From Arthrobacter sp. KBS0702 (GTDB lineage: Bacteria > Actinomycetota > Actinomycetes > Actinomycetales > Micrococcaceae): DNA of 64,000 nt. Where the stretch lies: NCBI RefSeq assembly GCF_005937985.2, contig NZ_CP042172.1:2232001-2296000 (forward strand), read 5' to 3'. The first letter of the stretch is position 1. Each line of letters opens with the position of its first letter. The notes below the pieces were generated by a model. That model was not told where the DNA came from and made no database searches. It was given only the letters and a program-made list of their open reading frames with translations. Below, piece by piece: positions 36,999 through 43,752 of the stretch. A program made the position numbers and the translations under genes.

Positions 36999-38625
<1,627 letters not shown>

Positions 38626-38627
38626 TT

Positions 38628-40526
38628 TCAGTCCTCTTCTTCCCAGTCCGGGGTCATGTTGCGGGCAACCTGGATCTGGTCGTTGCTGACTCCGGCGGGG
38701 ACCATCGGCCACACCATGGAGTTGGGGCTTACGACGAAATCGATGACCACCGGGCGGTCGTTGATCGCCAGGGCCTGCTGGATGGTGGCGTCGATGTCCT
38801 CGTCGCGTTCGCAGCGGAAGGCGGCGCAGCCGTAAGCGTCCGCGAGCTTGACGAAGTCCGGGATCCGTACGGTGTCGTGCCCGGTGTTGAGGTCGGTGTT
38901 GGAATAGCGGCCCTCGTAGAACAGGGTCTGCCACTGGCGCACCATGCCCAGCGAGGAGTTGTTGATCACAGCGACCTTGATCGGGATCTTGTTGATCGCA
39001 CAGGTGGCCAGCTCCTGGTTGGTCATCTGGAAGCAGCCGTCGCCGTCGATCGCCCAGACCACCCGGTCAGGTTCGCCCACCTTGGCGCCCATGGCGGCCG
39101 GCACGGCGTAGCCCATGGTGCCTGCGCCGCCGGAGTTCAGCCAGGCGTGCGGGCGTTCGTACTTGATGAACTGCGAGGCCCACATCTGGTGCTGTCCGAC
39201 GCCGGCGACGTAGACGCCCTCCGGCCCGGTGAGGGCACCAATCCGTTCGATCACGCGCTGCGGGGCGCTCAGGCCGTCCTCGGGTTCGGTCCAGCCCAGC
39301 GGGTAGGTCTCCTTGAGGTTGTTCAGGAAGGCCCACCAGTTGGTCAGGTCCGGGGTTCCGGCGGTTTCGAACTGCTGGCGCAGTGCCTCGCTGAGCTCCG
39401 GGATGATCTCCTTGACCGAACCCACGATCGGCACGTCGGCGGTGCGGTTCTTGGAGATCTCCGCCGGGTCGATGTCCGCGTGGATGACCTTGGCGTTCGG
39501 GGCGAAGGACTTCAGGATGCCGGTGACCCGGTCATCGAAACGCGCGCCCAGGGTGATCAGCAGATCCGACTGCTGCAGCGCGGTCACGGCGGACACGGCG
39601 CCATGCATGCCCGGCATGCCCACGTGCTGCGGGTGGGAATCCGGGAAGACGCCCCGGGCCATCAGCGTGGTGACCACCGGGGCACCGGAGAGCTCGGCCA
39701 GTTCCCGCAGCTCGGCGGACGCGTGGGCCTTGACCACGCCGCCGCCGACGTAGAGCACCGGCTTGCTGGCGGCCGCGATCAGCCGGGCTGCCTCACGGAC
39801 CTGCTTACTGTGGCCACGGAGCACCGGGCGGTAACCGGGGAGGTCGATCTTGGGCGGCCAGGAGAAGGTCATCTGGCCCTGCTGGGCATCCTTGGCCACG
39901 TCGACGAGGACGGGGCCCGGGCGGCCGGTCGAGGCCAGGTGGAACGCCTCGGCCATCACGTGCGGGATGTCGTTCGGGTCGGTCACCAGGAACGAGTGCT
40001 TGGTGATCGGCATGGTAATGCCGACGATGTCCGCTTCCTGGAACGCGTCGGTGCCAATGACTCCGCTGGAGACCTGGCCGGTGATGGCCACCATCGGCAC
40101 GGAGTCCATGTGGGCGTCCATGATGGCGGTAACGAGGTTGGTGGCCCCGGGGCCCGAGGTGGCGATGCAGACGCCCACCCGTCCGGTGACCATGGCATAG
40201 CCTTGCGCGGCGTGGCCGGCTCCCTGTTCGTGACGGACCAGAATGTGGTTCATTTTGGAGGCCATCAAGGGGTCATAGGTGGGCAGGATCGCGCCACCGG
40301 GCAAACCGAAAATGTCCTCGACGCCGAGTTCTTCGAGCGCGCGGACGATTGCTTGCGAGCCGGTCATCACCGTCGGGGGTACGACGTTGTTCGGCCCAAG
40401 GACGGGAGAGGCAGCAGCATGCTCGACGCCGGCGTCGGCCGGTCGTTCGATGCGTTCCGGAGCCTTGTGGGCTCCAGCGGACTTTGTGGCCATCAGCGAG
40501 GGGCTGATCGGCGATCCTTTGCTCAT
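38628..40526 (-). CDS. ilvB: Acetolactate synthase large subunit
   Basis: IlvB is the thiamine diphosphate and FAD-dependent catalytic subunit that condenses pyruvate to acetolactate. The 632-residue protein has the [13 protein letters not shown] start region, the catalytic Glu in [15 protein letters not shown], and the diphosphate motif [29 protein letters not shown] in the C-terminal domain. The first about 50 residues are a polar extension. It is preceded by a leader peptide and an attenuator, so expression should follow branched-chain aminoacyl-tRNA levels, and it heads ilvBNC. Confidence 0.97.
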
Positions 40527-40574
40527 CGGACTCTTCCTTTGGTGGATCTTCTGTGATCGTGGAACTGCGGGTAA

Positions 40575-40614
40575 TAAAAAAACCCCTCAGCCTTAGCGGC
40601 TCTTCGAGGGGTTT
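40575..40614 (-). terminator. Attenuator terminator in the ilvB leader
   Basis: On the minus strand AAACCCCTC pairs with GAGGGGTTT, followed by a run of T, 49 bases before the ilvB start and 28 bases after the leader-peptide stop. This position, after a short Val-rich ORF and before a biosynthetic gene, is diagnostic of transcription attenuation. Two alternative upstream helices are described in the findings. Confidence 0.9.
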
Positions 40615-40642
40615 GCGCGTGACGGTTCGTTACCAGTGGAGG

Positions 40643-40729
40643 CTATGGAGCCACGCGCTTGGTAAGGACGACGGATACACCTGCAGCACTCTCGTATGCA
40701 ACGCGGCCGGTGGTAACGAATGCGGTCAT
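40643..40729 (-). CDS. ilvB leader peptide (28 residues)
   Basis: A 28-codon ORF, ATG at 40729 and TAG at 40643-40645, directly upstream of the attenuator. It encodes MTAFVTTGRVAY at the start and GVSVVLTKRVAP at the end: six Val (5, 10, 18, 20, 21, 26) and one Leu, no Ile. The Val-Val-Leu cluster is where ribosomes would stall when charged tRNA is scarce. C. glutamicum ilvBNC is also preceded by an attenuator with a leader peptide, so the mechanism has precedent in Actinobacteria. This ORF is too short to be found by size-filtered gene calling. Confidence 0.88.
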   Translation of the reverse strand: MTAFVTTGRVAYESAAGVSVVLTKRVAP

Positions 40730-40748
40730 GCGTTCAGTTTTCCCTCTG

Positions 40749-40795
40749 CGTGAGACGGGTGTCAACGAGGTCGCCCCCTGTCTCACGATGTGGAC
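40749..40795 (-). promoter_or_regulatory. ilvB promoter region with inverted repeat and ilvD-shared motif
   Basis: On the minus strand TTGACA (40765-40760) is a perfect -35 hexamer; the -10 is weak (GAAAAC, 17-base spacing). The -35 is flanked by CGTGAGAC/GTCTCACG, a perfect 8-bp inverted repeat (40749-40756 with 40780-40787). Next to it is TGTCTCA-4-GTGGAC (40779-40795), also found upstream of ilvD. Confidence 0.55.
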
Positions 40796-40869
40796 AACGG
40801 CGTCCACTTTTTGGTCCCCCGGTTCCTCTGGTGACCCTTCCGCCTTCGGCGGCAGGCGGGAGTCTCCTA

Positions 40870-40905
40870 CCCCAAGCGGACGGCGCGGGCGCCGTTCGCT
40901 TGGGG
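40870..40905 (-). terminator. Hairpin between ilvD and ilvB, distal
   Basis: A 16-bp stem with one G-U pair and a 4-base loop, the second of two stem-loops after ilvD. It may back up the nearer one (40925-40948) and insulate the ilvB promoter. Confidence 0.6.
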
Positions 40906-40924
40906 CCCCTCGGAGCCTGCCTTA

Positions 40925-40948
40925 CTAAGCGTGGTCGCCCACGCTTAG
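40925..40948 (-). terminator. Hairpin directly after ilvD
   Basis: A perfect 10-bp stem, CTAAGCGTGG with its complement, and a 4-base loop, starting 4 bases after the ilvD stop codon. Likely the ilvD terminator; no strong T-run. Confidence 0.65.
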
Positions 40949-40952
40949 GGAA

Positions 40953-42674
40953 TCACCCGCAGTAGGCGCCGGTGGAGGCGCTGTGGACGAGCTTGGCGTA
41001 CTTGGCGAGCACACCCTTGGTGAACTTGGCCGGAAGCGGCTCCCAACCCACCTTGCGGGACTCCAACTCGGCCTCGTCGACCAGGAGGTCGAAGCTGCGG
41101 GCCGCGATGTCCACCCGGATCCGGTCGCCGTCCTTGACGAAGGCGATGGGACCACCGTCGACGGCTTCCGGGGCGACGTGGCCGATGCAGAGGCCCGTCG
41201 TGCCGCCGGAGAAGCGGCCGTCGGTCAGCAGCAGCACGTCCTTGCCCAGGCCCGCGCCCTTGATGGCACCGGTGATGGCGAGCATCTCCCGCATGCCGGG
41301 GCCGCCCTTGGGGCCCTCGTAGCGGATGACGACGACGTCGCCGGCCTTGATCTGGCCCTGGTCCAGCGCGTCCAGGGCACCCTGTTCGCGCTCGAAGACG
41401 CGGGCCGTGCCCTCGAAGACGTCGGCGTCGAAGCCGGCGCTCTTGACGACGGCGCCCTCGGGAGCCATCGTGCCGTGCAGGATCGTAATGCCGCCGGTCT
41501 TGTGGATCGGGTTGTCCATGGCGCGGAGGATCTTGCCGTCCAGGTCCGGCGGGTTGATCGCTTCGAGGTTCTCCGCGACGGTCTTGCCGGTGACGGTGAG
41601 GCAGTCGCCGTGCAGCAGGCCGGCGTCGAGCAGCGCGCGCATGATCACCGGGACGCCGCCGATCTTGTCGACGTCGGTCATGACGTAGCGGCCGAACGGT
41701 TTGAGGTCGCCGAGGTGCGGGATCTTGTCGCCGATCCGGTTGAAATCGTCCAGGGTCAGCTCGACCTCGGCCTCACGGGCGATGGCGAGCAGGTGCAGGA
41801 CCGCGTTGGTGGAGCCGCCAAAGGCCATGGTGACGGCGATGGCGTTCTCGAAAGCTTTTTTGGTCATGATGTCCCGGGCGGTGATGCCCTTGCGCAGCAG
41901 GTTGACCACGGCCTCGCCGGACTTGCGGGCAAAGTCGTCGCGGCGGCGGTCCGCGGAGGGCGGGGCGGCCGAGCCGGGCAGGGACATGCCCAGCGCTTCG
42001 CCGATGCAGGCCATCGTGTTGGCGGTGTACATGCCGCCGCAGGCTCCTTCGCCCGGGCAGATGGCCTTTTCGATCCGGGTCAGGTCTTCCATGCTCATCT
42101 TGCCCGCGGCGCAGGCACCCACGGCCTCGAAGGCGTCAATGAGGGTGACTTCCTTTTCGGAGCCGTCCTCCAGCTTGACCCAGCCGGGCATGATGGATCC
42201 GGCGTAGAGGAAGACACTCGCGAGGTCCAGGCGGGCGGCGGCCATGAGCATGCCGGGGAGCGACTTGTCACAGCCGGCCAGCAGCACAGAGCCATCGATC
42301 CGCTCGGCCTGCATGACGGTTTCGACGGAGTCGGCGATGACTTCGCGGGAGACCAGGGAGAAGTGCATTCCTTCGTGGCCCATGGAGATGCCGTCGGATA
42401 CGGAGATGGTGCCGAACTGCATCGGGAACCCGCCGCCGGCGTGCACGCCTTCCTTGGCGCCCTGGGCCAGCCGGTTCAGGGAGAGGTTGCAGGGAGTGAT
42501 TTCGTTCCACGAGCTCGCCACGCCGATCTGGGGCTTGGCGAAGTCGTCGTCGCCCATGCCGACCGCACGGAACATGCCGCGCGCCGGGGCCGCGTGGATT
42601 CCATCGGTGACGACCCGGCTGCGGGGCTTGATGTCCGGTGTGGTTGCTGTCGCTGTTTGGGTGTCCTCACTCAT
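40953..42674 (-). CDS. ilvD: Dihydroxy-acid dehydratase
   Basis: IlvD dehydrates dihydroxy acids to the keto acids transaminated by IlvE. The 573-residue Fe-S enzyme has [33 protein letters not shown] and the [16 protein letters not shown] segment, giving the three cluster-type cysteines, and late [20 protein letters not shown]. Length is normal. It is a single gene on the minus strand upstream of the ilvB leader, with its own upstream motif shared with ilvB. Confidence 0.97.
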
Positions 42675-42768
42675 GGGTGAAAGTCTAGGGCTCCGGCGCG
42701 GGCAGCAACGAGCCGTAATGGCTCATTAAGCGCAAAACCGGGAATATTTCGTCCGGATGGTGGACGCT

Positions 42769-42785
42769 TGTCTCATTCCGTGGAC
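42769..42785 (-). promoter_or_regulatory. ilvD upstream motif shared with ilvB
   Basis: TGTCTCA-4-GTGGAC (GTCCAC-4-TGAGACA on the minus strand) matches the element at 40779-40795 in 13 of 13 fixed positions. It lies about 95-110 bases upstream of the ilvD start. The recurrence upstream of two genes in the same pathway suggests a regulator site. Confidence 0.5.
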
Positions 42786-42813
42786 GTCCCGGCCGTGCGG
42801 CACCGAGCACGGT

Positions 42814-43752
42814 TCAGATGCTGTGGGCCGTGTCACGCAGCTCGGGGGCCTCTGCGACGGCCCGGGCCTCTGCCTTGAGCATTGCGAGAACCTGCCGGAT
42901 GGTGGTCCGGGCGGCGGCCTCGGGACGGGCCAGGGCTACGATGCTTCGGCTGGCCTTGACACCGCGGAGCGGGCGGAGCACGAACCCCTTGCCCTGGTTC
43001 TTCAGGGCGGTGTACCGCGGGAGCAGGCTGAGCCCGTGCCCGGCGCTGACCAGTGCCTCCAGGACGCGGAGGTCCGGGAACAGCTGGGCCCGCAGGGCCG
43101 GGGAATCGGCCTGCGTTTCAATCTGGCGCAGCACGGTGTCAAAGGGGAAGCCGTCAGGCACCCCCATCCAGGGGAACCCGACCACGTCTTCGGCGCTTAG
43201 CGTCGCCTTGCCGGCCAGGGCGTGGCCCGCCGGTACGGCCACGTCCAGCGGCTCGTCCAGCAGGGGGACCACCTGGAGGCCCTGGCGGGCGAACACTTCG
43301 GGCCCGTCGACGCTGTGCGCCAGGACGATGTCATAGTCGGCGGCCAGGGCGGCGAAACCGGCCACGCCGGGATCCTCGAAGTGTGCTTCGAAGCGGAGAC
43401 CGTCGATCTCCTTCACCCGGTGCAACAGCCCGGGCAGGAACATCTCCGCGGCGCTCGGAAAGAACGCCGCCGTAATCCGGGTCTGCCAGCCGAGCCGGTA
43501 GGTGTCGATGGTGGCCTCGGCGCGGGCCATGGCGGTGGACACCTCCGCCGCCGCTCCCGCCATGGCCAGCCCCGCCTCGGTCAGTCGCACTCCCCTGCCT
43601 GACTTCTCGACAAGGACGACGCCGAGTTCCTCCTGCAGGGTCTTGAGCTGCTGCGAGACCGCCGACGGGGTCACCCGCAGGGCCTCGGCAGTGGCCCCTA
43701 CAGTGCCGCGGTCCGCCAGTTCGCGAAGAATCCGCAGTCGCTTGAAGTCCAT
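42814..43752 (-). CDS. LysR-family transcriptional regulator
   Basis: A 312-residue LysR protein: helix-turn-helix at the N-terminus (RILRELADRGTVGATAEALRVTPSAVSQQLKTL) and a periplasmic-binding-like effector domain. No effector is evident. It lies upstream of ilvD on the same strand (139-base gap) and divergent from the sunset-domain gene (105-base gap), so either could be a target; LysR proteins often act on the divergent gene. Confidence 0.9.
   Translation of the reverse strand: MDFKRLRILRELADRGTVGATAEALRVTPSAVSQQLKTLQEELGVVLVEKSGRGVRLTEAGLAMAGAAAEVSTAMARAEATIDTYRLGWQTRITAAFFPSAAEMFLPGLLHRVKEIDGLRFEAHFEDPGVAGFAALAADYDIVLAHSVDGPEVFARQGLQVVPLLDEPLDVAVPAGHALAGKATLSAEDVVGFPWMGVPDGFPFDTVLRQIETQADSPALRAQLFPDLRVLEALVSAGHGLSLLPRYTALKNQGKGFVLRPLRGVKASRSIVALARPEAAARTTIRQVLAMLKAEARAVAEAPELRDTAHSI

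Follow-up and report, generated by a model that had tools for sequence, protein, structure and literature searches.

The ilvBNC locus and its leader peptide

The window, meaning the whole 64,000-nucleotide stretch of Arthrobacter sp. KBS0702 DNA analysed here, carries ilvD, a leader region, ilvB (start at 40526), ilvN and ilvC in this order on its minus strand, as assigned by NCBIfam matches. The leader element lies directly upstream of ilvB-ilvN-ilvC, a placement that is a membership feature of actinobacterial ilvB attenuators. The features are listed below in order along the minus strand; near leaders are those of the Arthrobacter group.

40760..40765, minus: -35 element TTGACA of the leader promoter, present upstream of 49 of 49 distinct near leaders
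40736..40741, minus: -10 element AAAACT, after an 18-nt spacer from the -35 and ending 6 nt before the leader ATG
40643..40729, minus: leader peptide ORF, 28 codons plus TAG, MTAFVTTGRVAYESAAGVSVVLTKRVAP, identified by sequence and translation and conserved in relatives
40711..40720, minus: A strand of helix P1, TTCGTTACCA, leader codons 4-7, 10 bp with 40626-40635
40664..40678, minus: likely regulatory codons GTA TCC GTC GTC CTT (V18 S19 V20 V21 L22), at the position of the Ile, Val and Leu codons of distant relatives
40650..40658, minus: B strand of helix H1, GCGCGTGGC, leader codons 24-27, whose CGC and GTG are identical in all 49 near leaders, with covariation across the phylum
40626..40635, minus: A' strand of P1, TGGTAACGAA, 4 nt 5' of B' by the 7-bp core definition of H1
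40615..40623, minus: B' strand of H1, GTCACGCGC, flush with the terminator
40576..40614, minus: predicted intrinsic terminator with a 7-T run (40582-40576) and a covarying outer stem
38631..40526, minus: ilvB, acetolactate synthase large subunit (NF005860, 1111.9 bits)
38116..38934, minus: ilvN, acetolactate synthase small subunit (NF008864, 218 bits)
36999..38138, minus: ilvC, ketol-acid reductoisomerase (NF004017, 564.3 bits)

The true ilvN start is probably inside the 38116..38934 ORF, judging by the NF008864 match, which begins at residue 105. Just upstream of ilvD is a LysR-type regulator gene (42814-43752, minus), whose best matches fall far under curated cut-offs. Between ilvD and the leader promoter, at 40840-40960 on the minus strand, lie two strong hairpins, one of 10 bp and the other of 16 pairs; they have no U-run, score z -4.26 relative to shuffled sequence and may mark where the ilvD transcript ends. 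Rfam covariance models, from a library that may not include ilvB-II, gave zero matches up to E 1 on either strand of 38000-43000. A simple promoter and terminator scan of 40400-41100 missed the minus-strand leader promoter and terminator, its sole output being two terminator-like sites on the plus strand. Searching the own genome for T-boxes produced a single weak site elsewhere (L123, G000:C1:2126917-2127156; 29 bits, family cut-off 93).

Leader DNA matched all 37 genus-level genomes (the own genome included) and none of 22 other genomes of the order. The closest named loci with IlvB are titled Arthrobacter, Pseudarthrobacter and, in one case, a Paenarthrobacter MAG, and the near set comprises 51 loci with 49 distinct leaders. 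By predicted translation, all 49 keep the leader ORF as coding sequence. Their peptides, of 13-28 residues, follow the pattern M(I/T)xFVTxG...VVVLTKRVA with exceptions; length differences keep the frame, and the longest version occurs in the window and L083. Conservation is strongest at the last regulatory codons and those that follow: GTC in 49/49, CTT in 47/49, CGC in 49/49 and GTG in 49/49. Such conservation is, for a predicted leader element, stronger evidence than shuffle statistics. Indeed, the fold energy of the whole leader is unexceptional (z -1.70; 12 of 200 shuffles fold equally well), and its minimum fold picks P1 and the terminator.

With the -10 element ending 6 nt before the ATG, transcription would start at or beside it. 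This spacing suggests that the leader ORF is leaderless, transcribed from or beside the ATG at 40729. The geometry recurs in 48 of the 49 near leaders, with T at -7 and A at -11 each kept in 48/49. It also recurs at 45 of 48 loci derived from a covariance model described below (R1), for which promoter score was one of the criteria in picking the start.

An earlier note on this DNA had described a Val-rich leader of 28 residues with six Val codons and one Leu codon, and this proved exact to the base: MTAFVTTGRVAYESAAGVSVVLTKRVAP has Val at codons 5, 10, 18, 20, 21 and 26, Leu at codon 22 and zero Ile. The note had also taken the lack of Ile to suggest that Val and Leu are the signals. The Ile-free composition holds for the peptide of this species, but relatives do carry Ile: near leaders have it at codon 2 in 29/49 and further on in 12/49, and some distant leaders have it among the regulatory codons. 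Rarity as the reason for the conserved CTT is weak in the window. With its 31 long ORFs as stand-ins for genes, CTT accounts for 13.4% of the codons for Leu, and GTA for 8.9% of those for Val.

Helices P1 and H1 in comparison across the phylum

P1 joins the early leader codons to the RNA just before B', and the H1 core pairs GCGCGTG (40658-40652) with CACGCGC (40621-40615) over 7 bp, extendable to nine pairs with one G.U. Two mutually exclusive helices, of 10 and 7 bp, had been proposed in the earlier note. They are indeed unable to nest together, and each has comparative support. P1 and H1 present simultaneously would form a topologically possible pseudoknot, a class of structure that the energy model used here excludes.

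The P1 score of the window is reached by 4 of 500 simple shuffles. With L013 and L014 excluded, 47 near leaders remain, of which 40-47 are paired at each position; both sides of a position have changed in L086, L094, L010 and L118, and an A.C mismatch occurs at one position in 5/47. Across 12 Micrococcaceae-type loci, the same shuffle test gave at most 6/500 for L001, L083, L009, L013, L018 and L021, 24/500 for L016, and weak results (38-349 of 500) for L086, L094, L010, L007 and L014. Helices of unrelated sequence occupy the place of P1 in L018, L021, L013 and L016, and there A' precedes B' by 1-6 nt. A general test for P1-like pairing between the leader and the H1 loop at 40 loci (leaving out L017, L138, L139, L141, L146, L142 and L143) found only six at 5/100 shuffles or fewer, namely L018, L061, L072, L075, L135 and the window. 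By this test P1-like pairing is not phylum-wide.

H1 reaches further. Its score in the window is matched by 2 of 200 dinucleotide shuffles, and a search for upstream helices at 30 loci (27 distant, 3 near) found one of at least 5 bp in 29, of which 19 scored better than 190 or more of the 200 shuffles. The best helix was not H1 in L032 (among the 19), L045 and L076, and L020 had none. In alignment A2 (23 sequences), 90.7% of H1 cells are paired and 5 of 10 H1 pairs have changed on both sides. For the whole A2 structure the figure is 11 of 20 pairs, in 41 cells, which none of 500 shuffles equalled; of the inner terminator stem, just 47.7% of cells are paired. A 22-row alignment, comprising the window and 21 sequences absent from A2, has double changes at 13 of 20 pairs, likewise unequalled in 500 shuffles, although it was fitted to the R1 model and so leans towards it. 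The 24-sequence set omits L020, L026 and L045, and A2 omits L015, L017, L018 and L019. The outer stem of the terminator likewise covaries across the phylum alignments. We conclude that the predicted helix H1, in the published antiterminator position, is under selection.

H1 and the terminator abut. They have zero nucleotides in common in the window and in 49/49 near leaders. Among 45 rows of two phylum alignments (the window counted twice), 29 are flush with none in common, 12 share 1-2 nucleotides and 4 have a gap of 1-3 nt, so that 33 of 45 have no common nucleotide. A gap-free junction was observed in 40 of 44, compared with 23.7 +- 2.4 of 44 for random spacers, a difference whose significance is overstated by the relatedness of the sequences and by purines that pair easily with the U-run. 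On these alignments, exact abutment of H1 and terminator looks selected.

Beyond the near set, many but not all of the 30 distant loci judged, out of 67 upstream of ilvB, show one layout in differing sequences: the last Val or Leu codon, about 5 nt (by eye), B, a loop with the stop codon in or near it, B' and the terminator. The search pattern found no terminator at 37 of the 67, and of the 30 with one, L021, L037 and L064 were dropped when their hairpin was judged not to be that of the leader. The pattern also misses cases, for leader-like ORFs are visible by eye in the Nesterenkonia loci L023 and L025 and the Kocuria-titled L022 and L024. Three loci titled Sporosarcina beigongshangi (L019), Proteobacteria bacterium MAG (L036) and Bifidobacterium breve MAG (L079) have ilvB leaders like those of other actinobacterial groups, and their record titles look doubtful.

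Two covariance models extended the comparison. R1, built from A2 with the window included, matches 23 of 198 phylum genomes at one site each, the own genome and one congener among them. An IlvB match lies downstream on the same strand, starting within ~440 nt, at 22 of the 23 loci (the window included); the exception, L138, is a short piece with no IlvB match downstream. The 175 of 198 genomes without a match count against the attenuator reading, though the filters there were stricter and absence is not implied. Leaders found by R1 include LVV(I/L)-type peptides resembling the M. tuberculosis uORF of PMC13236596. R2 was built from 20 loci, none titled Micrococcaceae, two of them belonging to genomes from other families and another two to MAGs of doubtful label. 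It finds 40575-40672 with 47.1 bits (E 3.2e-11 in the window; E 1.8e-9 in the 3.65 Mb genome), the only significant site in the own genome, where the next has E 0.25. The predicted element is thus homologous in sequence and structure to members outside Micrococcaceae.

The terminator and its possible competitors

An intrinsic terminator is predicted between the leader ORF and ilvB. Its outer stem joins AAACCCCTC (40614-40606) to GAGGGGTTT (40588-40580) in 9 pairs, and its inner stem is AGCC:GGCT with the loop GCTAA. The succession of GC stem, T-run and ilvB had been recorded in the earlier note, and a recheck of coordinates confirmed it.

We folded the leader with the RNA under a stalled ribosome set as unpairable, in an energy model without pseudoknots or kinetics. 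The outer stem of the terminator has a mean probability of at least 0.97 in 24 distant leaders (lowest 0.71, in L027 unmasked) and in 49 near leaders it is 1.0 both with and without the mask. In the window the terminator stands at ~1 in all four states, including no ribosome, a stall at the Leu codon and a ribosome at the stop codon, which speaks against the attenuator reading. The earlier note's proposal that terminator folding depends on which helix forms is therefore unsupported: the terminator is at ~1 in every state folded, and P1 and H1 use none of its nucleotides. Folding under alternative constraints, which the note had put forward as a check, predicts the terminator in each state and gives its 5' arm no partner above shuffles. 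Without a ribosome, P1 has probability 0.92 and H1 0.08. P1 beats H1 at equilibrium, yet H1 is the more widely conserved, another point against the attenuator reading.

Termination is a race, so we also cut the RNA before the 3' arm of the terminator and computed the occupancy of the 5' arm. In the E. coli controls trp, his, thr and leu, the arm is sequestered at 0.71, 0.69, 0.82 and 0.60 when the ribosome is stalled, and at 0.29, 0.00, 0.56 and 0.03 when the RNA is free. The outer arm CCCCTC of the window reaches 0.12 stalled against 0.01 free. Group means for the stalled state are 0.21 in the 24 distant leaders (2 above 0.5) and 0.17 in the 49 near leaders (4 above 0.5).

Proposed mechanism, rivals and known systems

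Comparison establishes the ORF, the promoter spacing, the predicted P1, H1 and terminator, and their order. The ilvBNC attenuator with a leader peptide claimed in the earlier note is supported to this extent, as one of the actinobacterial kind, with the Val codons and the single Leu codon as the likely signals. We consider it probable that the element is a ribosome-dependent ilvBNC transcription attenuator, by which the actinobacterial ilvB leader family is represented in the Arthrobacter group. Judging from promoter geometry, transcription from or beside the ATG would let a ribosome load directly on the leaderless, Val-rich ORF. Shortage of Val or Leu would slow decoding at GTC-GTC-CTT (V20-V21-L22) and hold the ribosome over or just 5' of B, whereas under fast translation it would reach the stop codon and leave the RNA. 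The position of the ribosome would then govern whether P1 or H1 forms; the helices come from comparison, and the ribosome's effect on them is our proposal. By position, P1 would correspond to the antiantiterminator of C. glutamicum and H1 to its antiterminator. Since H1 lies flush with the terminator and shares no nucleotide with it, its effect would come through folding order, stacking or RNA polymerase pausing rather than through sequestration of a strand. The name "antiterminator" for H1 should accordingly be held loosely.

A more familiar alternative is attenuation of the E. coli type, in which a stalled ribosome would let GGCTC (codons 26-27) pair with GAGCC of the inner terminator arm and block the terminator. 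When B is masked in the cut RNA of the window, GGCUC:GAGCC does fold and arm pairing, 0.06 in the free RNA, reaches 0.46, and in 12 of 49 near leaders (and 2 of 24 distant ones) whole-arm sequestration exceeds 0.5. The window value is ordinary, however: shuffled upstream RNA gives 0.37, and 11 of 40 shuffles reach 0.46, a null result that also weighs against the attenuator reading. At least 38 of 40 shuffles are beaten by 3 of 4 E. coli controls (not trp), by none of the 24 distant leaders and by 3 of the 49 near ones, and the outer arm CCCCTC is sequestered at only 0.12 after the stall. An antiterminator through GGCTC:GAGCC or CCCCTC pairing is thus no better than shuffles in the window. Together, the whole-arm and shuffle results mean that a dedicated antiterminator is undetectable as a shared feature, and we regard the E. 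coli-type reading as quite unlikely. The masking does bring out that upstream RNA is kept away from the terminator arm once H1 has formed (0.06 free, 0.46 with B masked), an effect that another structure might have as well. A competing strand can be seen in the Nesterenkonia-titled loci L023, L025 and L026, whose leader end has a GCCGGGG that is the complement of CCCCGGC, the 5' arm of the terminator, and repeats the sequence of the 3' arm. By its sequence, this GCCGGGG is a true competing strand and completes a classical antiterminator triple, unlike the Arthrobacter group; the ilvB leader family may therefore hold more than one solution.

H1 could instead be a pause hairpin, delaying RNA polymerase until a ribosome has loaded, and not an antiterminator. 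Its place directly 5' of the terminator in aligned members, the stop codon in or near its loop and the 33 of 45 rows without overlap would all suit such a role, but pausing in C. glutamicum is proposed, in the available text of PMC11857589, for the first hairpin's apex, and that hairpin corresponds to P1 and not to H1. We hold this to be rather unlikely. That a chance ORF and chance helices merely accompany a constitutive, leaky terminator, with the promoter setting expression, would agree with the unexceptional fold energy of the whole leader and with codon changes in S. coelicolor that had no effect, as told in PMC1262725. That reading is highly improbable in view of the codons and promoter spacing that are conserved and of the compensatory changes seen across the phylum.

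Our preferred reading, the ribosome-dependent attenuator, has close published parallels, set out here as the available text of each source presents them. The C. glutamicum ilvBNC leader is a three-hairpin attenuator whose antiterminator and terminator share the trinucleotide GCC, the basis of a fast switch (PMC11857589), and changes of Val to Ala or of its start codon alter expression (Morbach 2000, as told in PMC11857589). That leader, or the Corynebacterium ilvB-II motif (PMC10272879), shares with the window a near-leaderless peptide rich in branched-chain amino acids, a terminator before ilvBNC, an early antiantiterminator helix placed like P1 and an antiterminator beside the terminator placed like H1; this likeness is one of position, taken from published descriptions. 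It differs in the overlap, GCC there and zero nucleotides here, so that the shared boundary of the "fast" model is absent from the window. Its peptide has 15 residues rather than 28, and peptide and helix sequences differ.

Streptomyces IlvL, MRTRILVLGKRVG, is leaderless (PMC8079986, in the part available) and is encoded by 6 of the 48 R1-derived loci, with a one-residue variant at 2 more, in genomes of 7-10 Mb. These loci have the C-terminal KRV or QRV, the layout of H1 and terminator and the leaderless geometry in common with the window; they differ in having 13 codons, and at all eight P1-like pairing does not exceed shuffles. In M. tuberculosis, a uORF rich in branched-chain amino acids also precedes a Rho-independent terminator and ilvB1, and alanine changes of its LVVI regulatory codons abolish induction; the authors draw a classical antiterminator (PMC13236596, as far as available), whereas none rises above shuffles in the window. 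The E. coli trp, his, thr and leu attenuators (L119-L122) similarly have a terminator preceded by a leader peptide in which the regulated amino acid is abundant, but their stalled 5' arm is sequestered at 0.60-0.82, compared with 0.12 here, and the classical competing strand is not seen. In S. coelicolor, changes of candidate regulatory codons were without effect (Craster 1999, as told in PMC1262725), which runs against an attenuator.

The Arthrobacter-group element joins actinobacterial ilvB leader-peptide attenuators that are already known, and so adds this group to them; the literature searched, with subscription papers mostly outside its scope, yielded no description of one in the Arthrobacter group. 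A selected H1 that in 33 of 45 rows nonetheless does not overlap the terminator amounts to a wide comparative test of the published mechanism. Extending this, most carrier Actinobacteria might use a flush-junction switch, in which H1 stands in register with the terminator base, translation acts through stacking, folding order or pausing and not through a competing strand, and the C. glutamicum overlap is a local elaboration. We put this forward as possible, if doubtful. Selection on H1 together with the lack of overlap makes the discrepancy between the codon changes in C. glutamicum and M. tuberculosis and those in S. coelicolor testable with junction mutants.

Microbacteriaceae-type loci are without the B, B' and terminator leader layout. 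When 32 loci were re-examined, the end of ilvD lay at most 180 nt from the ilvB match in 27. The codons of the 3' third of ilvD were then compared at 12 of the 27, 15 having been dropped for lack of a full-length segment. In these 12 Microbacteriaceae-type loci (L029, L030, L034, L038, L042, L047, L057, L060, L062, L071, L073 and L077), where ilvD directly precedes ilvB and no leader was found, ilvD keeps synonymous codons from GTA CTA CTN TTG onward through ...RVDI. Pairwise identity there is 0.84-0.89 over 45 codons, compared with 0.55-0.77 elsewhere and with 0.58-0.67 for the same codons in 15 Arthrobacter-group genes. The conserved codons may act as a control element within ilvD, in place of a separate leader.
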